Positions 7,174 through 22,790 of a stretch of DNA of 36,034 nucleotides are shown piece by piece. Both the position numbers and the translations under genes were made by a program. The notes beneath the pieces are model-generated. The model did no database searches, had not been told where the DNA came from, and worked only from the letters and a program-made list of their open reading frames with translations. Each line of letters begins with the position of its first letter. Position 1 is the stretch's first letter. This stretch comes from Candidatus Parcubacteria bacterium. Its GTDB lineage: Bacteria > Patescibacteriota > Minisyncoccia > UBA6257 > 2-01-FULL-56-20. The stretch lies in the NCBI GenBank assembly GCA_027324805.1, contig DAHVRZ010000007.1, positions 1 to 36,034 of the forward strand, written 5' to 3'.

Positions 7174-7636
7174 AGGTCGCATAATACCCCGCTGGAGACG
7201 TAGAGGCATATCCGACTTTCAATGCGGCGTCATTCGTCCCGTTCGCTTCAAGATTTATCCCGCCGGCCACATCAAGCACCGCGCCCGGACTCGCCGTACC
7301 GATGCCAAGACTCCCCGGGAAGCTGTAATTCCCTCCTCCCGTATTCGAACCGAAGGAGCCCGCGGAGACATTCCCGGCGCTCATTGTGCCGGTGTACGTA
7401 CCGCTGATCGTGCCGGCCACGGTAAGATTGCCGCCCATGCCCACATTGCTGCCGCTCACACTGATCGCGCCGGAGCCGTTCGGTGGTGCCTGGCTCGGGC
7501 CGGTGAACGCGGCCACAATTCTTACCGTGACGAATGCCGCGAGGGATGCTCCAAAGAGCGTTGCCGCAAACGTCATCCACCGCGGAACTATCAATTTGTT
7601 CTTTTGTTCTTTTTTCATGTTTCGGTACGATGCCAT
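7163..7636 (-). CDS. Membrane-anchored fibre-like surface protein
   Basis: TM segment followed by VAAFTGPSQAPPNGSGAISVSG, GNLTVAGTISGTYTG, GSLGIGTASPGAVLDVAGG (tail-fibre-like). Slightly overlaps the start of the 5113 gene. Confidence 0.8.
   Translation of the reverse strand: MASYRNMKKEQKNKLIVPRWMTFAATLFGASLAAFVTVRIVAAFTGPSQAPPNGSGAISVSGSNVGMGGNLTVAGTISGTYTGTMSAGNVSAGSFGSNTGGGNYSFPGSLGIGTASPGAVLDVAGGINLEANGTNDAALKVGYASTSPAGYYATYAP
7308..7447. repeat. 140-bp near-identical repeat, copy 1
   Basis: Matches 8364-8503 at a constant offset of 1056 with one mismatch seen (7415 g vs 8471 a). Confidence 0.93.
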
Positions 7637-7660: not shown

Positions 7661-8782
7661 CTATGCGTGATGGAGATGGCAATACGCGGACGGGGTCTCG
7701 TTGCCGCCACCGTCGGACATCACCTGAACAACCTCGTAACCGAACGAGTTCGTATTGACCGACGTAATATCCATCGCATCCGCCGCAGTATTGGTCGTCC
7801 TTACCGTGCAGGTAATATAGTAGTTGGTGTCAACGAATGCCGGAGAGAACGATTCCGTGCCGGCACAGCTATAAAGGTTGCTCCCGCTGGTTATGGCACA
7901 GGTGGAGAAATTGAGGTAGAGGTCCGTCCCCGAGGAACTTCCCGACGGCCATGCAGTGATGCAGTTGGCGCCCGCGATGCAGTACTGCGTCGCGTTCACG
8001 GCACCGTTCACGTCGAGCGGATATCCCGGGTTTGCCTTTCCGACGCCCACATTACCGGTACCGGTCACAAGAGAAGCTCCTCCCCCATTATTACTGAAGT
8101 ATCCTCCTGCGCCGCTTCCCAATGCCGCGGAGGAATAACCGCTCACTCCATACGTCGTTCCTACACCGTCCACCCCTATACCCGCTCCCGAACCATATAC
8201 GCCTATCTGACCGCTTGCACTGCTTCCTTCTCCCCATACGCCTATCCCGTTACTCGCACTCGAATAGCCCTGTACTCCGGCATAACTGGCACCACTTGCG
8301 CTCGTTGCGCCGTATACCCCACTCCCCACGCTGCTCGAACTGTTCGTCACGCCGTTCACCGTGAGACTCCCCGGGAAGCTGTAATTCCCTCCTCCCGTAT
8401 TCGAACCGAAGGAGCCCGCGGAGACATTCCCGGCGCTCATTGTGCCGGTGTACGTACCGCTGATCGTGCCAGCCACGGTAAGATTGCCGCCCATGCCCAC
8501 ATTACCAGTCTGGGTACTCGCACCCGATACCGTCATATTGCCGCCTATCGTCGTATTGCCGGTCAATGTACTTTGGCTGCTCACGGTAAGATTGCCTGCG
8601 ACACCAATGCTTGTCCCGCTCGCAGTGAGCACGCCGTTTCCCAAAGGCGGTGCCTGGCTCGGACCGGTGAACGCCCCGACGACGTTTACCGCAAAAAACG
8701 CCGCAAGGAATGCACCGAATATCGCCGTAAAAAAGCCGGCGGCCATGCTGAACATACGGTTGCGGGGATTTGTGTTGTTCAT
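7661..8782 (-). CDS. Membrane-anchored fibre-like surface protein (paralogue of 7163-7636)
   Basis: 373 aa; same TM + GAFTGPSQAPP start, stacked GNLTV/GNTTIGGNMTV units, GVYGATS...GVQGYSS...GVWGEGS repeats, GNVGVGKANPGYPLDVNG. Confidence 0.85.
   Translation of the reverse strand: MNNTNPRNRMFSMAAGFFTAIFGAFLAAFFAVNVVGAFTGPSQAPPLGNGVLTASGTSIGVAGNLTVSSQSTLTGNTTIGGNMTVSGASTQTGNVGMGGNLTVAGTISGTYTGTMSAGNVSAGSFGSNTGGGNYSFPGSLTVNGVTNSSSSVGSGVYGATSASGASYAGVQGYSSASNGIGVWGEGSSASGQIGVYGSGAGIGVDGVGTTYGVSGYSSAALGSGAGGYFSNNGGGASLVTGTGNVGVGKANPGYPLDVNGAVNATQYCIAGANCITAWPSGSSSGTDLYLNFSTCAITSGSNLYSCAGTESFSPAFVDTNYYITCTVRTTNTAADAMDITSVNTNSFGYEVVQVMSDGGGNETPSAYCHLHHA
8364..8503. repeat. 140-bp near-identical repeat, copy 2
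   Basis: See 7308-7447. Confidence 0.93.
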
Positions 8783-8839: not shown

Positions 8840-10465
8840 TTAGGGACTCCAGTCCACAATCACATTGTTGACGATCGGCGTGTGGACGGGCGTGGCGATA
8901 AGCGTCACGAGGTAGCGGAAATAACGATAATTGCTGTAGAGATTGTAATTGAGAGGGAACGTCACACCGGGACCGGTCGGGACATAATAGGTGTTCGGCG
9001 TGCCGTCCGGGCCGGTGAAATTCCATGGACCGCTCGATGAATTGCTTACGGCAAACTGGAATTCGACCGACGTCCCCGACGGCTGCGTCCCCTGCCATTG
9101 GACCGAGTCGAGCTGGGCGCCTTGTACGTCGCCGGTGTCATACGGAATGGATTCGAGCACTCCGATGGTTCCCGTCGCCACCCATCCCGTCGAAACATAA
9201 TAATTCGAGGTTGAACAGGTGTTATTGTTCGCACAGTTGAAATCGATCCAGCCGACCGCGTCATTCCACGCCCAGCCATGGAAGTTGCCGTTCGAATCGA
9301 CCGTCACCTGATACGGCGTCGTCCCCGGACAAGTTGACGTGCTCTGTCCGCCGCAGAAGCTGACCCAACCGACTGCGTCATTCCACGCCCAGCCGGAAAA
9401 GTCGCCTGCGCCGTCATTCACGACCGCATAAGTACTCGATGATATGTTATTTGTACTCTTTGTGAGAGTGACCGGCCCGAGATAAAGACGCGTACAGTCG
9501 GCGATATCGCCGACGCCGGAATACATCCCGTTCTTGCCGCCCCCGACAACCGACCACCCTGCGCCGCTCGTATAGACCGGCGTGAAAGGGGCGTTGGGAA
9601 CCGACGGCTGAACACAATAATACGGCGGATTACTGTTGGTATTGCCGTCGAATTCCTGGAGACCGACTCCCTGGATGGTGATGGTGTCCCCGGGATCGGG
9701 CAAGGGTCGCGTATTCACGGCGACCTGATACATGGAATGGCCCGGATCGGAACCTGCATTCACGATGTCACCGACGAGCGGCGACCAGCCCACATCCCCT
9801 TCCGCATCGGTGTTGTTTGTTCCGGCCGCAATGTCGCTTGCCCACGGCGTCCAGCCCCAGGGACCCCAGCCGCCGGGCTGCTTCGGATTCTGCATGCGCA
9901 CGCCGAGCTGGAAGTCCTGGGTGAATGGTCCCGTTCCCGAGAGCCAGATTGCCGCGCAATCGGTATTGTATACGGGCTTCCCGTCAGATCCGGTGCTGGT
10001 ATAGCCGTCGGCTCCCGCATACGTGATGGGATTCGGATTCGTGGTGTTCGCGTTGCTCAGGGAGTAATCGGTGTAATCCGATGCATACGTACTGGGGATC
10101 TCGGCACAACTTCCGCCCTGCTGGATCTCGACGCCTATCGTCGGCGAAGAGGTGGCGGTTGCCGATTGCCCATTAACGCTGGGGCCGGCAAAGGACACTG
10201 GTCCCAACGATGAACTCGCATAGCCCGTGATTCCATAGCCATTCACCTCCACCGTTCCTGGCGTATAAAAATCCATCCATCCGATCGCATCATTCCATGC
10301 CCAGTGCGCATTACCGGCAGAACTTATATTCGTAGAAGCCAACGCAACTTCCCGCGGGGTATGCAAAAACACAAGCGTCGCCATCATCACACCCGCCACA
10401 ACGGCACATACCATAATGCACAGGCCGGGAATGAAATAACGATGATGGATGACACGGCGGATCAT
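8840..10465 (-). CDS. Secreted protein with WAWNDAxGW repeats
   Basis: 541 aa, N-terminal TM; AHWAWNDAIGWMDF, SGWAWNDAVGWVSF, HGWAWNDAVGWIDF. Confidence 0.85.
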   Translation of the reverse strand: MIRRVIHHRYFIPGLCIMVCAVVAGVMMATLVFLHTPREVALASTNISSAGNAHWAWNDAIGWMDFYTPGTVEVNGYGITGYASSSLGPVSFAGPSVNGQSATATSSPTIGVEIQQGGSCAEIPSTYASDYTDYSLSNANTTNPNPITYAGADGYTSTGSDGKPVYNTDCAAIWLSGTGPFTQDFQLGVRMQNPKQPGGWGPWGWTPWASDIAAGTNNTDAEGDVGWSPLVGDIVNAGSDPGHSMYQVAVNTRPLPDPGDTITIQGVGLQEFDGNTNSNPPYYCVQPSVPNAPFTPVYTSGAGWSVVGGGKNGMYSGVGDIADCTRLYLGPVTLTKSTNNISSSTYAVVNDGAGDFSGWAWNDAVGWVSFCGGQSTSTCPGTTPYQVTVDSNGNFHGWAWNDAVGWIDFNCANNNTCSTSNYYVSTGWVATGTIGVLESIPYDTGDVQGAQLDSVQWQGTQPSGTSVEFQFAVSNSSSGPWNFTGPDGTPNTYYVPTGPGVTFPLNYNLYSNYRYFRYLVTLIATPVHTPIVNNVIVDWSP

Positions 10466-15337: not shown

Positions 15338-15409
15338 GGCCTCATCGTCTAACGGCTAGGACGGCGCCCTTTCACGGCGTAAATCGGGGTTCGATTCCCC
15401 GTGGGGCTA
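15338..15409 (+). tRNA. tRNA-Glu (anticodon UUC)
   Basis: GGCCTCATCGTCTAACGGCTAGGACGGCGCCCTTTCACGGCGTAAATCGGGGTTCGATTCCCCGTGGGGCTA; anticodon loop CTTTCAC. Confidence 0.93.
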
Positions 15410-15447
15410 CACAATACCTTCTCCACGCGCGGCATATGCCACCTTGC

Positions 15448-15480
15448 ATCAAAAACCCCGATAACATAGGGATTTTTGAT
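15448..15480 (+). terminator. Putative terminator downstream of tRNA-Glu
   Basis: atcaaaaacccc...gggatttttgat inverted repeat. Confidence 0.6.
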
Positions 15481-15566
15481 TGATAAAGGCTAAGCCCCAT
15501 ACACCTAAACTATCGGATCATCAGTGAGCGCGCGGGAAAGCCTACGCTAGCGAATCGCTACCGACA

Positions 15567-16118
15567 TTGGATGATAGATGCGATACCCCAAACTACTACT
15601 CGAGGAACATGTTAATCGCCGAGTGGGATCATGAAGAATACTTAGTAAAAGCGGTATTTGTCGTGAGTATTGCGACGCTCTTATTTGGTATCGCCCTGTT
15701 TTACGTTTCAAACCGAAAAGACGATCTAAATACCACAATTATCGCAGCTGGCAATGCACGGATCCAATTCGAAGCGACTTCTGAAGACCTTCTGCTTGCT
15801 AACGACCTCCATAAATATGTAGGGACCGTGCCATTAAATTCGTTTATGTGGATGGCATATTATGGGCTCTCGGGGATTGAGCCAACTTCCTCACTATCTC
15901 CAACCAACAGCACAACTATGGCTGATTATCTCGTGCAGGTCAGCAACTCTATCAATGATTACAACAACGCCATCACAGCGCTCGATAACGAATCGCATTG
16001 GTACGGCGTTGCTCAGGATTTCCTTTTTTGGCTGGAAAGCATATTACAACTCATTACTGTTATATTAGCATCCCGCTTATCTGTCATAAGCGCCCGACGA
16101 CCGGCACGCCTTGGTTAG
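15567..16118 (+). CDS. Hypothetical membrane protein
   Basis: 183 aa with N- and C-terminal hydrophobic segments; start may be the internal M at MLIAEWDHEEY. Confidence 0.6.
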   Translation: MDDRCDTPNYYSRNMLIAEWDHEEYLVKAVFVVSIATLLFGIALFYVSNRKDDLNTTIIAAGNARIQFEATSEDLLLANDLHKYVGTVPLNSFMWMAYYGLSGIEPTSSLSPTNSTTMADYLVQVSNSINDYNNAITALDNESHWYGVAQDFLFWLESILQLITVILASRLSVISARRPARLG

Positions 16119-16165
16119 AGGTGTGCGCGGGTGGTGAAGTGAAACGGAATATCAAAGTTACTACT

Positions 16166-16987
16166 CTAGTAACCGACCGACTGAGTACCTGAGGATGTGG
16201 CCGTAGTAGAAGCGGTGGATGTCGCAACGAATGTCGCAGCCCGCGGCGCAAGTGCGGCCTGAACGGATTGGTAGCTATTTCTTGTATCGTGATCCTTCAC
16301 ATCATAACTCCAAAGAATCTCGTGGGGATACGCTGCTTGGAGTGCTATAAAGCGGTTATTTTGACTGGCAACTGCTTTCAGTTGATCCACACTCAAAGTG
16401 TTTGTCCCGCTGATTAAGGTTAACGCTCCGGCGTAGGGCCAGAGATCATAAGTCCCATTATTATAACGAGTCGCGAAAAGATAAGTATCTCCGGGCTGTA
16501 AGAGATAATTTGAGGAATTAATACTGCTGCTAGGCGCAAAAGTATCACCGCCTTGAACTACAAATAGTGAATTTCCTTCATAGCCTCCTACCTGATTTAC
16601 GGTGACCGTCTCTTGTAAGTTGCCCTTAATATTCGATATTACCTCTACCGAGAATTGGGTAATTGGGATGTTAAAGCGAGAATCAAGAGGAACTATTCTA
16701 GTGTTTACCCTTCCCACCACCTTCCCAACAAAGACATTATGAGAAGCGCCGAGGAGCACTCGATCATCAGCTAAATTTGAGGCAAACTGCATATCGATGC
16801 CGACAGTCTTGGAGTTTATGGGTGAGGTTGGGGCTTGAGAAGATGTTGTCGGAGTAGACATGTTACTCGAAGCCAACACTACATTTCCATTTGAGGAACG
16901 GTGTGACGTTGAGAACATAAATGCGAAAACTATCCCTGACAGCGCCAATCCAGAAATCCCTATCTTGAACAATATGGTTTTCGACAT
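16166..16987 (-). CDS. Hypothetical membrane-anchored extracellular protein
   Basis: 273 aa; N-terminal TM, then ADDRVLLGASHNVFVGKVVGRV...FSVEVISNIKGNLQETVTVNQVGG. Confidence 0.75.
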   Translation of the reverse strand: MSKTILFKIGISGLALSGIVFAFMFSTSHRSSNGNVVLASSNMSTPTTSSQAPTSPINSKTVGIDMQFASNLADDRVLLGASHNVFVGKVVGRVNTRIVPLDSRFNIPITQFSVEVISNIKGNLQETVTVNQVGGYEGNSLFVVQGGDTFAPSSSINSSNYLLQPGDTYLFATRYNNGTYDLWPYAGALTLISGTNTLSVDQLKAVASQNNRFIALQAAYPHEILWSYDVKDHDTRNSYQSVQAALAPRAATFVATSTASTTATSSGTQSVGY

Positions 16988-17012
16988 TTCAGTGTCCTCT
17001 TCTAATTACGAC

Positions 17013-17507
17013 TTATTGTCCTTGAAGGGTCGTACAATTGTATGTTGAAAGATCTACAGAAGGCGCCGGCCGAGGGCCTTCATCAGTGAACGTATCCTCG
17101 GCGATCTGCCTTCCTGAAGCATCGTAATAAAAAGTAGTTCCGCTATACCCACTACTAGTGACAATTACGTAGATGACCTGACTATTCTTAACACATCTTT
17201 TAAGAGAGCTGAGGGAGCTCGAAACTTGATTATATTTGTCTTGTACCGAAACGGGTACCATAGCCGAGACGCTCGACGACGCAATAACCGAAGAAGATGT
17301 CGATTGCAATGCGGGGGTAGAAGACTGAGACAACCCGGTTTGACTTCCTCCAGTCGATACCGAACTAGATCCCTGAGGCTGACCCTGCCCTGCAGGGGGC
17401 AAAGATACGTTTTGACGACCCATCCAAAAGAACCAGACTCCCACCACGAGAACCGCTATACCAATCGCAGCGATGATATATGATTTCATATGTTTCTTTA
17501 GTTTCAA
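17013..17507 (-). CDS. Hypothetical membrane-anchored protein, Ser/Gln-rich linker
   Basis: 164 aa; MKLKKHMKSYIIAAIGIAVLVVGVWFFWMG then low-complexity linker. Confidence 0.7.
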   Translation of the reverse strand: MKLKKHMKSYIIAAIGIAVLVVGVWFFWMGRQNVSLPPAGQGQPQGSSSVSTGGSQTGLSQSSTPALQSTSSSVIASSSVSAMVPVSVQDKYNQVSSSLSSLKRCVKNSQVIYVIVTSSGYSGTTFYYDASGRQIAEDTFTDEGPRPAPSVDLSTYNCTTLQGQ

Positions 17508-17523
17508 TTAGTTAATCGACTTA

Positions 17524-19716
17524 TTAATTCCCCCACAAATAATTATAGTCACTGATGTCCTGTGCCCCCAAAATGGTTTGTGAGGTTTGTGCATAATACA
17601 TAATATTCCCATAGACGCTATGATCTAGACCTAAAGCATGGCCCAACTCATGAGTTGCTGTATTTTGAATTTCATTTGAAGTGCTACTCGCAAGATAATA
17701 GGAATTAAAATCTATACCTCCTGGAGTGGTTCCGGATGCCGGATACCAAAGTGCCACAATATCCGTCCAAGGATAAGTAGAACTATCAACGTCATCTAAA
17801 ATTATGTTTGCAGTACTGGTGGAAGAAGTAGAGGCAATACTTATAGGACCTACAGCATTCCATGTATTAACTGCTGCATTCCATTGTGTAGAATATTGGG
17901 TTGAGCTTGCCCAAAGTATCTTTCCATTTTCCACCGAAGGCACCCATTGAAAATCTATATAGTGCGGCCCCATCGGCGAAGAACTCACAAAGGTTGGACT
18001 GCCATCCTGGGCGGATGTCGCATTACCACTCACTAATTCTGTAGAGGTGCCATTGAGCGGCCAGTAGGCAATCAATCCGGTACTGGTAGGTAAAATTTCC
18101 TCATTGGCGGTTGAGGTGATATCCGCCGCTGATCGCTGAATATCCCACAATCTCACCTCGGCCAGGTCACCGTTAAAGTAGTTCGTCGAAGATAGCGCGG
18201 ATCTTCCAAGCCACACCGAACTGGTAGTGGACGAATTGAAGCAATCGGTAGTGGTTTGTTCTTCGCCGTCAAACAGGAGCGAGAAAGGTGTCGAGATCGC
18301 AGACCCTTTTGTGATCGCAACCTGATGCCAATACCCCACCGCATCATCATTAGCCTCACGATCAGCAGCCTGAAGTTCAATCGACGAAGTTCCATTACAC
18401 GAAAGAGTTAGGTTGATTCCACTGCTATTTTTTGAAACCGTAAACCCTTCGCCGGTGCTCGTGCTTCGGTCATCAATGATCGTGCCTGCTGTCGATGTCG
18501 ATTTGTACCAAAACTCGATGGTAAATGGCCCCGTATCGGACAGCGCGGCGGTGGATACCGGCCACGCTAGCCCACTGCTTCCGTTGAAATACATACTCTC
18601 TTCGTTATTCGGAACGGCATTGATCGTAAAATCAACCGTGGAAGTTCCCGCAGGGCCGAACGATTGCCACGAAGAAGAACTCCCATCCGAAGCTACGGCC
18701 CTTGCTTGCCAATGATAATTACCGTTCGATGCAATATAGGGCGTAAATATGCCATCTCCATTAGAGACGAAGGAGCTGGCAACATTCGCCGTCCCAGTGA
18801 ATGGAAATCCCGTGGGTTTTATTTCCACTTGGAGTTGAACGGTATTTGACGTTGCCGTGCCAAGGGTGGCCCCAAATTCAACCGTGGTAGTGTCCACCAC
18901 GCCACCTTCGCTTATTGTAGTAGTTTGGTCTGGATAATACTGATTTAATGATGAAAAATAGGTGCCCAAATCACCGGTATAGAGACTGGAAATTTCTGTT
19001 GGCGTAAGTATGCGGGAAAAGAAGGCGAAATCATCCATATTGCCACTAAAGTAATGGTTTGTATCATTACTGTAGCCGTGCCAATCGCCGATCATGTTAT
19101 AGGTACCAGAGTAGGCACCCATAGTTCCGGAATATGATGCCACTTGGGTGCCATCCAGATAAACGGTCTGCGTTGAATTCCCATATGTGATAGCGAAGAA
19201 CTGCCATTGGCCGGCGGTGACGTTCCCTCCTTGAGCGCAACCGCTCAATCCCGCAAAACAAAAATAAAGTTCTCCCCCACTCCCAAGGCCGAATAAGAAT
19301 CCACTATTGTTCGATTCATTAATCGCTTCGACGATGCCCATTGTCGAAGATATGTTTTGTGGATCGATCCATCCGGTAATGGTAAAGGGACCTGCTGGCG
19401 GAGTCGTGGATAGCGTAATTACACTATTGCCACCATTGAGGTTTGCTCCTTGGCCGAATTTTCCATATTGCGTTCCATAGGAAACATTGGCACCGCTTCC
19501 ATTGTTATTTCCCATCGTATCACTCGCATTCCCTTCGAAGCGGTAATAGGAAACCAAATTCGCATCGTTATAAAGGGGTGTGTAATATAATTCTTCAGCA
19601 GCCGCATGCGCGGCGGAAGTCTTCAAAAAAACACCGCCCATTACAAAGGCGGCAGCTAAAAGCAATATTAGTGCATAACGCGATGACCATCTTCTCAAAC
19701 CAAGGGCATCGTTCAT
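17524..19716 (-). CDS. Secreted LamG-LamG-matrixin (M10-like) zinc metalloprotease
   Basis: Start MNDALGLRRWSSRYALILLLAAAFVMGG preferred over 19833. Two LamG-like domains; C-terminal HELGHALGLDHSVYGNIMYY = HExxHxxGxxH plus Met-turn-like motif. Confidence 0.85.
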   Translation of the reverse strand: MNDALGLRRWSSRYALILLLAAAFVMGGVFLKTSAAHAAAEELYYTPLYNDANLVSYYRFEGNASDTMGNNNGSGANVSYGTQYGKFGQGANLNGGNSVITLSTTPPAGPFTITGWIDPQNISSTMGIVEAINESNNSGFLFGLGSGGELYFCFAGLSGCAQGGNVTAGQWQFFAITYGNSTQTVYLDGTQVASYSGTMGAYSGTYNMIGDWHGYSNDTNHYFSGNMDDFAFFSRILTPTEISSLYTGDLGTYFSSLNQYYPDQTTTISEGGVVDTTTVEFGATLGTATSNTVQLQVEIKPTGFPFTGTANVASSFVSNGDGIFTPYIASNGNYHWQARAVASDGSSSSWQSFGPAGTSTVDFTINAVPNNEESMYFNGSSGLAWPVSTAALSDTGPFTIEFWYKSTSTAGTIIDDRSTSTGEGFTVSKNSSGINLTLSCNGTSSIELQAADREANDDAVGYWHQVAITKGSAISTPFSLLFDGEEQTTTDCFNSSTTSSVWLGRSALSSTNYFNGDLAEVRLWDIQRSAADITSTANEEILPTSTGLIAYWPLNGTSTELVSGNATSAQDGSPTFVSSSPMGPHYIDFQWVPSVENGKILWASSTQYSTQWNAAVNTWNAVGPISIASTSSTSTANIILDDVDSSTYPWTDIVALWYPASGTTPGGIDFNSYYLASSTSNEIQNTATHELGHALGLDHSVYGNIMYYAQTSQTILGAQDISDYNYLWGN

Positions 19717-19782
19717 GGTAACTTGGCTCGATTCAATTATAGCATACGTGCGATTTGCATTAATGCCACTATCACATCCATG

Positions 19783-20110
19783 CAAACCCCCAAATAAGTC
19801 TTTGTAAAAAACCACAATAAACGCTATACCCATACGACAGAGAAAGTTATGCCACCTTGTTCAGGTGGCATAACCCGGTACAATGCGAGAAGAACCTTCC
19901 CATTCTTCTATGCAATATGTAACATGTCGTCGCTCTCGATTGCTTTCGAGACCTCTCTCAGCAGCGGTTCCCAAGTTCGAGGTACGTCCTGATGTGGGCT
20001 ACGGATAGGCCGCCTTCAAAACACCAGTATTTATGCGGCTTTCTCAATCGCGAATATGATGACCCTTGCGGGGAATCGAACGTTCGGGATTTTCCGTATG
20101 CCCCACGGGA
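19783..20110. repeat. ~330-bp diverged direct repeat, copy A
   Basis: Shares with copy B: aagtctttgtaaa-type motif, the same hairpin, ccggtacaatgcgagaagaac, ccaagttcgaggtacgtcc-gatgtgggctac, taggccgccttcaaaacac-tatttatgcggct, gattttccgtatgccccac. Confidence 0.88.
19846..19874 (-). terminator. Hairpin/terminator within repeat copy A
   Basis: gttatgccacc-ttgttca-ggtggcataac; followed on the minus strand by TTTCT. Confidence 0.6.
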
Positions 20111-20131
20111 ATCGTTCCCGGGAAGCGGTGG

Positions 20132-20341
20132 CTATCTGAAGTCCTTATGGAAGGGCATCATCCGAAGCGGCAGGGCATCTCCCTTGCCGTCGTCCCCTTC
20201 GTATTTTTCCATCAAGCCACACAGGCTATCAAAGAGACTGAGCATGCGGAGCGCTTCCGGGTATGGGAGCACCACGCCGTACTCCTCCGCGTAGTCATCG
20301 ATGAAGTCCTGCACCACTTCCTCTGGGTAACCGTATCCCAT
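20132..20341 (-). CDS. Small hypothetical acidic protein
   Basis: 69 aa: MGYGYPEEVVQDFIDDYAEEYGVVLPYPEALRMLSLFDSLCGLMEKYEGDD; protein-like composition. Confidence 0.5.
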   Translation of the reverse strand: MGYGYPEEVVQDFIDDYAEEYGVVLPYPEALRMLSLFDSLCGLMEKYEGDDGKGDALPLRMMPFHKDFR

Positions 20342-20525
20342 GAGGAATGCATTGTATTATTTTCCCCGCCTCGATCCGACCTTTATAGCTCGAAGCGTAG
20401 GACACATCCTATCAGGTGGGTGGGATGCCTCAAGGTAGCATGATCTGCCGCTGGAGCAGGATTTACAGTCGCGACATATTACTGAATGATGATAACGCGA
20501 CCCAATCAGAGTCTAATTGCCACAT

Positions 20526-20870
20526 CTATAAACGAAACAGCGACATAAGGATTTGAAAGAGACCAACAAGCACTAAAGCTCCCGTCAGCCACATCATGGC
20601 TTTAGCATGCTTCTCATTGCTACGCGCAAGCCTTTCATTCGATTCAATGAGTAACTGAAAGGCTCGATCAAGAACGACCCTGTCCTGCATAGACGATTGC
20701 TCCATCTGGAGCGAGGCAATCTGTAATGATTCAGCAATATCCAACGAGGCTGAGGCGGTCGCAATACCAACATGGTGCGCAGATTGAGCACCAACGCCAA
20801 ACCTAGACGCCTTGAGATTCTCAATTGCTTCAACCACCTCTTCATTTCTATGTTTGTTTGTTAACTCCAT
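20526..20870 (-). CDS. Coiled-coil protein with C-terminal TM helix
   Basis: 114 aa; LLIESNERLARSNEKHAKAMMWLTGALVLVGLFQILMSLF; 23 bp downstream of the HATPase-STAS gene. Confidence 0.72.
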   Translation of the reverse strand: MELTNKHRNEEVVEAIENLKASRFGVGAQSAHHVGIATASASLDIAESLQIASLQMEQSSMQDRVVLDRAFQLLIESNERLARSNEKHAKAMMWLTGALVLVGLFQILMSLFRL

Positions 20871-20893
20871 TGCTCTAGAGTGGTCTGTTGCTC

Positions 20894-21916
20894 TTAACTC
20901 GGCTGGTTGGCCAACCCGCGCTTAATCATTGCTTCGACTTCTTCGTTTGCATTCACATATCGAATCATGATGTCCGGATGCTCGCCTTGAAAAACGCGAA
21001 ACACCTCGTCCACAAAAGCCTGGCCCACCGAGTTCACGCTACGGAAATCAAGCACTACCTGCCTGAATTTCTCAAGACCCATAAGGAGTCGCTTCGCCTG
21101 TGATCGCGATACGTGAGGATCATTCGGGTCTGAACTCAAGGCAACCGCCACAATAGTCTTGCCAAACCCTATTTCCTGATCCGAGTATTGATCCATCACC
21201 TCTTTCGGGGTGCGAGTGGCATTCAGCGACAGCACCATATCGATGCATGTGCCCTTGCCAAACGACTCCCTCTTTTCAGGGGATAGGAACCATTCCTCAC
21301 CCTGGAACGTGTAGAACAAGTCGTCTGAAAGAATCGAGAACTTATCGAAGATGCGCGAGGTGAAGAAAATACCCTCCCCCGTGTGCTTTGTGGGATCGGT
21401 GGTGAATTTGCCCTTCGAAAGATGGAGGATGGCTTCTCTCATGAAGTCCAAATGAAGAGCATCTTGAATCTTATGGAAAATGCCGACGCCATTATCCATA
21501 ATCATCAACTCAAGCTCATCCTCCCGGATATCAAGCGTCACAAAGAGTACTGTCCCCTCTGAATGGTCGATAACATTGTTTACCATTTCAGTGAAACCAT
21601 ACGCGCATATCCCCTGAATGTTCTCCGGGAAGCGTCGGAGTAATGGTCTGATGTATTGTGACCAGACACGATCTTCTGCAAGTGTTGCCGTGATTGGAAG
21701 AGCGAAGTCGATATGGTTTCCCGAAGCGCTGAAATAACGGGTCCACCGAGTCCGGCCAACTTGAATGATGGTTCCCGCCGCCGCCTCGCGCGCAATGTAT
21801 TCATGCGCGCGCTGACGGGAGAATCCAAAGCGATCAGCAACGACCGACACTATATCGGATGGATGGTCCGCAATATTCTCAAAGATGAAGTCGCGGACGG
21901 CGGGTGTATCTTGCAT
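20894..21916 (-). CDS. HTH - HATPase_c - STAS-like (DUF4325-type) regulatory protein
   Basis: 340 aa; VADRFGFSRQRAHEYIAREAAAGTI (HTH), YGFTEMVNNVIDHSEGTV (N box), MIMDNGVGIF (G1), HTGEGIFFTSRIFDKFSI (G2), RQVVLDFRSVNSVGQAFVDEVFRVF (STAS-like). Confidence 0.85.
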   Translation of the reverse strand: MQDTPAVRDFIFENIADHPSDIVSVVADRFGFSRQRAHEYIAREAAAGTIIQVGRTRWTRYFSASGNHIDFALPITATLAEDRVWSQYIRPLLRRFPENIQGICAYGFTEMVNNVIDHSEGTVLFVTLDIREDELELMIMDNGVGIFHKIQDALHLDFMREAILHLSKGKFTTDPTKHTGEGIFFTSRIFDKFSILSDDLFYTFQGEEWFLSPEKRESFGKGTCIDMVLSLNATRTPKEVMDQYSDQEIGFGKTIVAVALSSDPNDPHVSRSQAKRLLMGLEKFRQVVLDFRSVNSVGQAFVDEVFRVFQGEHPDIMIRYVNANEEVEAMIKRGLANQPS

Positions 21917-21917
21917 T

Positions 21918-21955
21918 AGGGTATATAGGGTATATAGGCTATATAGCTATATATT
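21918..21955. repeat. Short tandem AT-rich repeat directly upstream of the HATPase-STAS gene
   Basis: agggtatat-agggtatat-aggctatat-agctatatat. Confidence 0.85.
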
Positions 21956-21966
21956 ACGGCCTTATA

Positions 21967-22335
21967 AGTCTTTGTAAACCCCTAAATACTTCTTTGTAAA
22001 CCCTGCGGTAGAATCTATACCGTAAAGAAGGTTATGCCACCTTGTTCAGGTGGCATAACCCGGTACAATGCGAGAAGAACATTGTAGTTCCTCTACGCAA
22101 AGCGCAACGTTGCGTCGTTCTCGATTGCTTTTGAAATCTCTTTCAACAGTGCGTCCCAAGTTCGAGGTACGTCCCGATGTGGGCTACACAATACCGTTCC
22201 AAACCTGCCCCTCGAGGGCTACGCGTAGGCCGCCTTCAAAACACGAATATTTATGCGGCTCCCTCAATCTCGAATGTGATGATCCTTGCAGGGAATCGAA
22301 CTTTCGAGATTTTCCGTATGCCCCACAGGAAAGGA
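21967..22335. repeat. ~330-bp diverged direct repeat, copy B
   Basis: See copy A; same orientation. Confidence 0.88.
22031..22059 (-). terminator. Hairpin/terminator within repeat copy B
   Basis: gttatgccacc-ttgttca-ggtggcataac, then TTCTTT on the minus strand. Confidence 0.6.
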
Positions 22336-22368
22336 TATTCGCGTTATCTAATCCCAAAAGCCGCCGCA

Positions 22369-22545
22369 TCATGGACTGGTAAGCTCGACCGACATCTGCC
22401 CGACATCGGAGCCGTTCGTCACGAGTTGGAGAGTGTAGGCGCCTGTAGCAGGGAGAGTGAGATGGCTGGCAAGATTCCCGCTCCCAGGGGCCCAGGAACT
22501 CGCGATCTTGGAACCGCTGGGGCTGAAAATGGTAAAGCTAATTCG
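22369..22545 (-). pseudogene. Remnant of a secreted beta-sandwich (PPC-like) protein C-terminus
   Basis: Minus-strand frame ISFTIFSPSGSKIASSWAPGSGNLASHLTLPATGAYTLQLVTNGSDVGQMSVELTSP*; no start codon or upstream domain. Confidence 0.6.
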
Positions 22546-22790
22546 CCTTTTGTAAAGAGTTGGTTATCCATAGGGGCATAAGGCCCTATCCTGATGTGGG
22601 CTACTAACTGTATTTTTCGAACCGAAATCGATTACAGGCCTCTCTGCTTATATATTTGTGGTTCGAGGTTGGAAAATAGAATATCCCCACAATCGAAGGA
22701 ATATATTCCCGTTTGTATAACACCCCTACAGCGAGTACCATGAATGCATGGGTTCAAAGGTCGAAAGGGACCTTATTTCCTAAAACCATG

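Follow-up and report, generated by a model that had tools for sequence, protein, structure and literature searches.

A split serine-integrase gene and its probable attachment arms at tRNA genes of Paceibacteria

Introduction

Most described genomic islands at tRNA genes carry tyrosine integrases. Integron gene cassettes form arrays of units with a repeated delimiter. Islands of the TIGER/Islander type, in the passages of PMC12884075 that cite them, lie at tRNA 3' ends with stacked arms. For recombinases that disrupt their own gene, passages of a review (PMC8371274) describe an exclusively archaeal distribution; the suicidal SSV-type tyrosine integrases treated there have attP in their own gene, which integration splits into two inactive halves, N-terminal and C-terminal. 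In mycobacteriophage BPs and its relatives, according to passages of PMC4557955 and PMC9262239, integration strips an ssrA-like tag from the repressor; attP lies in an ORF and attB in a tRNA gene, and the enzyme is a tyrosine recombinase with a tag of its own.

Few mobile elements have been described from Patescibacteria, whose genomes are tiny. Here we analyse a 36,034-nt stretch of a Candidatus Parcubacteria genome (contig DAHVRZ010000007.1; the window), whose diverged repeats are very probably the outer attachment arms (attL, P' side) of large serine integrase (LSR) elements inserting at tRNA gene 3' ends. Such elements would resemble the described tRNA islands in position and in their stacked arms, except that LSRs dominate the loci seen here. 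As in integrons, units are arrayed with a repeated delimiter, but the delimiter appears to be an LSR attachment arm and has no attC structure. With BPs, the proposed arrangement would have in common an attP in an ORF, an attB in a tRNA gene and the removal of a C-terminal tail; in BPs, however, the split gene is the repressor, and since here it is the integrase itself, repressor immunity of the BPs type does not apply. The SSV-type enzymes, likewise split at an attP in their own gene, differ in being cut into two halves, whereas the bacterial serine integrase would lose a terminal tail only. If true, this would be a bacterial serine-type counterpart to the archaeal self-disrupting recombinases described in passages of PMC8371274, and a testable case in which integration modifies the very integrase performing it. 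Open-access titles, abstracts and selected passages surfaced no description of a split-LSR arrangement.

Results

Two full copies and a decayed third in the window

The original prediction, made from the letters alone, proposed a cassette-like array delimited by two diverged but collinear repeats and a shrunken third. The repeats are as described: copies A (19783-20110) and B (about 21976-22331) align collinearly at 74% identity overall (E 1.6e-67), with two ungapped blocks at 83-89% identity, and C (22549-22605) is a real yet decayed copy in which the 16-nt TCCTGATGTGGGCTAC of A recurs exactly. The 13-nt core TGATGTGGGCTAC occurs three times in the window, against 0.02 expected. Apart from A and B the 876-kb genome has no full copy, nor did BLAST find one in seven congeners. 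The hairpin GGTTATGCCACC-N5-GGTGGCATAACC is present in both, but conservation is highest elsewhere in the repeat, over the 33-nt stretch CCAAGTTCGAGGTACGTCCYGATRYGGGCTAC. The whole repeat folds moderately better than shuffled sequence (z -2.6 to -4.3), no Rfam family matches it, and its minus strand holds a translated-looking ORF. The features below carry the labels of the reading argued for in this paper.

15338..15410, plus strand: tRNA-Glu (TTC) found by ARAGORN, 3' end GTGGGGCTAC; the acceptor 3' end equals the outer edges of A, B and C
15411..22605: inferred accretion island of about 7.2 kb, from tRNA-Glu to the outermost arm C; geometry as in genomes G145, G374, G030, G013 and G222
17524..19833, minus strand: unit A cargo, Laminin_G_3 plus M10/M43-type metallopeptidase (ORF as listed; its true start may be near 19718)
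19846..19875, minus strand: arm A hairpin GGTTATGCCACC-N5-GGTGGCATAAC, directly past the tail stop
19908..20003, minus strand: arm A tail ORF without a start codon, SPHQDVPRTWEPLLREVSKAIESDDMLHIA then stop
19973..20005, minus strand: arm A P' half-site and crossover edge (GGGCTAC)
20003..20111, minus strand: 109 bp outside arm A, with a homologous counterpart at B; probably the preceding unit's end
20132..20341, minus strand: unit B cargo, 69-aa ORF MGYGYPEEVVQDF..., read from the sequence
20526..20870, minus strand: unit B cargo, small membrane-type ORF with no family above cut-off
20894..21916, minus strand: unit B cargo, protein with HATPase_c and DUF4325 (STAS-like) domains (Pfam)
22030..22060, minus strand: arm B hairpin
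22093..22188, minus strand: arm B tail ORF without a start codon, SPHRDVPRTWDALLKEISKAIENDATLRFA then stop
22156..22190, minus strand: arm B P' half-site and crossover edge
22549..22605, minus strand: arm C, decayed; edge and partial half-site, tail deleted

Each repeat had been thought to follow the 3' end of a coding unit; on the minus strand it instead starts the unit, ahead of the cargo genes. The arm A hairpin is a possible terminator, though a terminator scan did not call it.

Relatives with other cargo in other Paceibacteria

Rather than being confined to this locus with invariant neighbours, as a single duplication would have it, related copies occur in nine other Paceibacteria genomes amid differing cargo and neighbours. 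The same delimiter thus stands beside different cargo in other genomes, in line with the proposed array. The 33-nt stretch is found again in further genomes of the class. A peptide profile search returned genomes G000, G030, G074, G098, G145, G222, G313 and G374, DNA comparison returned G013, and G022 was added later; the set comprises 10 genomes, the window's own included, and 14 copies with a tail. Every copy starts sharply at the conserved half-site—which is also where the outer boundary falls in pairwise comparisons—and continues on the opposite strand into a start-less ORF of 26-55 aa ('[GS]APHRDVPRTWDRLL...') with the common motif P-x-R-D-x-P-R-T-W-D-x-L-L. The cargo includes a pair of DUF5678 and aspartyl-protease-like genes in G013, a similar pair in G313, and a coiled-coil gene in G222. 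The G145 and G374 islands each contain SET-domain-type genes (loci L033, L037).

About 380 genomes of the phylum outside the class yielded a single marginal chance match, and searches of plasmid, phage and viral collections brought up no relatives. Protein matches in G183, G216 and G711 were judged to be chance, as was a 19-mer viral match to locus L003, which falls within coding sequence.

Arm edges repeat the last bases of a tRNA gene

In all six genomes with a tRNA gene in reach, the order is arm, cargo, the integrase where there is one, and an oppositely oriented tRNA gene (Arg in G374, Phe in G145, Glu in G030, G013 and the window, Ala in G222). The outer edge of the arm equals the last seven bases of its own tRNA at 67 of 70 positions, window included, reading GGGCTAC for Glu, GGCACCA for Phe, GGGCACC for Arg and GGTCCAC for one Ala arm. 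When edges and tRNAs were permuted at the genome level, no arrangement scored better and 6 of 720 tied, all of them exchanges within the Glu trio. In the tRNAs, the TTCGA block sits about six bases nearer the edge than it does in the arm, a shift that would fit the half-site offset known between attB and attP for large serine integrases.

Patescibacteria LSRs use many different tRNA genes. Among the Paceibacteria LSR ORFs of at least 430 aa that we surveyed, 26 of 41 end inside or against an opposite-strand tRNA, across 13 isotypes; one large serine recombinase near the G145 arm, 511 aa long, has its end within an opposite-strand tRNA-Phe.

In the window, the outer edges of A, B and C each end in GTGGGCTAC on the minus strand, and we infer that tRNA-Glu (15338-15410) is the integration target (attB). 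A DoxX-like gene still adjoins tRNA-Glu in congeners. In one of them (G004) a pilin-like gene lies about 0.3 kb from this tRNA, as against 7.7 kb in the window; the flanks are too diverged to give a base-exact empty site. Arm, tail and tRNA edge together form a recognisable signature with which islands could be found and dated.

The tail completes the integrase gene in frame

In G374 the copy forms one end of an element of 7.8 kb, with the arm 7 nt past the rpsT stop codon. At the other end lies an LSR with Resolvase, Recombinase and Zn-ribbon domains, which matches the TP901-1 integrase and has its 3' end inside tRNA-Arg, on the opposite strand; its frame contains no ordinary start codon ahead of the catalytic motif. 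Joining the two ends in silico at their common GGTGCCCC gives a predicted attP in which integrase and tail are in frame (...HPVLS-GAPDRDIPRTWDQLL...DAQLAA, then stop), and joining the outer flanks places rpsT beside tRNA-Arg, a predicted empty site. G030 holds an integrase remnant that shares 53% identity with the G374 enzyme and continues, again in this frame, into the tail of G030. The two further family members whose tRNA end is visible, in G330 (tRNA-Lys) and in G006, a congener of the window genome (tRNA-Arg), also enter their tRNA in that frame. With agreement in four of four (chance about 1 in 81), the tail can be read as the displaced C-terminus of the integrase gene. Over the 45 nt past the core, protein-level conservation appears in one of six frames (BLOSUM mean 1.42 versus 0.33 or less; reached in 0 of 500 shuffles), and that frame is the one of the integrase-tail join. 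A split integrase gene is well supported.

In G145 and G098, an older LSR end from a different family lies upstream of the arm in a different frame, as would follow from the insertion of a second element next to an earlier one. A +1 ribosomal frameshift from integrase into tail, which these two cases had prompted us to consider, was dropped because the cognate LSR family is in frame.

Stacked insertion as the preferred reading, and its rivals

The element geometry, the identity of the tRNA edge, the in-frame join in two elements and the coding signature of the tail were all computed directly. The G374 and G030 joins lead us to read A, B and C, very probably, as outer arms of elements stacked at tRNA-Glu. 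The free circle would carry attP within the integrase gene near its 3' end, such that the gene crosses the P' half-site and ends in a tail of 26-55 aa ('GAPHRDVPRTWDRLL...LAA'). Recombination with the tRNA end would then cut the gene in two and amputate the tail: the integrase would terminate inside the tRNA antisense, and the tail would stay behind at the element's other end as an ORF with no start codon. Successive integrations at one tRNA would push older arms outward, giving the order C, B, A, tRNA-Glu. A, B and C would have entered in this way, their integrases being lost later. We looked for an integrase or a recognisable remnant of one in the window and found none, so the three arms would be remnants, and the case for them is made by homology of arm, edge and orientation.

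The missing integrase would also suit a history in which A and B arose from a single remnant arm by plain segmental duplication, only the ancestral copy having come from an integrative element. So would the extent of their homology, which at 74% identity reaches about 210 bp inward from the half-site and about 110 bp outward. We nevertheless consider duplication unlikely. Arm C bears the same GGGCTAC edge as A and B next to an unrelated outer flank, and the outer flank of B matches the present tRNA-Glu flank over 15 nt spanning the edge (GGTATTGTGTAGCCC). Elsewhere, three arms stand in a row at separate spacings in G222, and the two arms of G374 occupy different loci. No codon position stands out in the differences between the A and B tail ORFs (about 4/6/8), suggesting that both are now unconstrained and probably drifting.

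A new integron-type system, in which a hairpin or cruciform serves as the recombination site of repeat-delimited cassettes, is very improbable. What could speak for it is a unit of about 780 bp common to G145 and G374, which are of different families: it runs from the arm to a 58-nt three-way junction about 0.75 kb further inside, past a 152-aa gene without known family, and similarity ceases outside it. The junction (L037, about 9743-9800, minus strand; L033, about 7185-7242) is 91% identical between the two and includes a compensatory change at one pair; it could be an RNA or a further mobile end. Among the regions checked, however, this cruciform was seen in G145 and G374 only, the A/B hairpin is missing from the other copies, no integron integrase was noticed, and the conserved part is an LSR half-site; the tRNA/LSR geometry already largely refutes the idea. 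The original prediction had itself set the hairpins apart from integron attC sites, and attC-like cassette sites were likewise rejected here on the missing Rfam match and the LSR half-site. Its suggestion of a new kind of cassette survives as regards the delimited array and fails as regards the hairpin as recombination site, the delimiter being in all probability the outer arm of a tRNA-targeting LSR element together with the integrase 3' end.

It is hardly credible that the start-less ORF has nothing to do with the integrase and is a gene in its own right or a tmRNA-like tag RNA: the conserved peptide, absent start codon and LAA-type ends would suit this view, but the ORF fuses in frame with the integrase in two elements, shows no conserved ribosome-binding or start signal, and tmRNA scores above cut-off elsewhere in 8 of 9 genomes tested, G145 giving sub-threshold matches only. 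A degenerate tRNA was also rejected; the T-arm is unpaired, and the weak model matches in G804 and G827 are real tRNA-Lys genes.

The tail as a candidate degradation tag

Returning to the split integrase, the sequence of the tail suggests a putative degron. Five of 14 tails end in [LK]AA, which is ssrA-like, and the viral-form tail in the passages on BPs cited above carries an ssrA-like tag (-LAA or similar); the tail of B ends in -RFA, similar to its host's -FAFA. Host tmRNA tags in these genomes end in -AFA, -AYA, -AMA or -SFA, not -LAA, and the host protease may thus or may not read -LAA. By analogy with BPs, the tail may be a degradation tag or a regulator that integration removes, which suggests that integration alters the stability or activity of the integrase. 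Tentatively, and with somewhat less than even confidence, we propose that the circle would encode a tagged, short-lived integrase, that integration would remove the tag or change the tail in a one-way or self-limiting switch, and that a family of such elements would accrete cargo at tRNA genes throughout Paceibacteria.

Further observations

Many members of the G145-type LSR family have a Trp codon that coincides with the CCA end (loci L079-L108, L139-L157). Orphan copies of the last ~33 LSR codons, with the rest of the gene absent, occur at loci L099, L107 and L090 and are probably scars of lost elements; one orphan LSR-end copy in G145 lies inverted beside the intact gene. In the window, the outer edge of B carries an extra 35 bp (22189-22223) flanked by two copies of GTAGCCC, possibly the remains of another att pair. 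The window also contains a 140-nt direct repeat (7308-7447 and 8364-8503) at 99% identity, 1056 nt apart.
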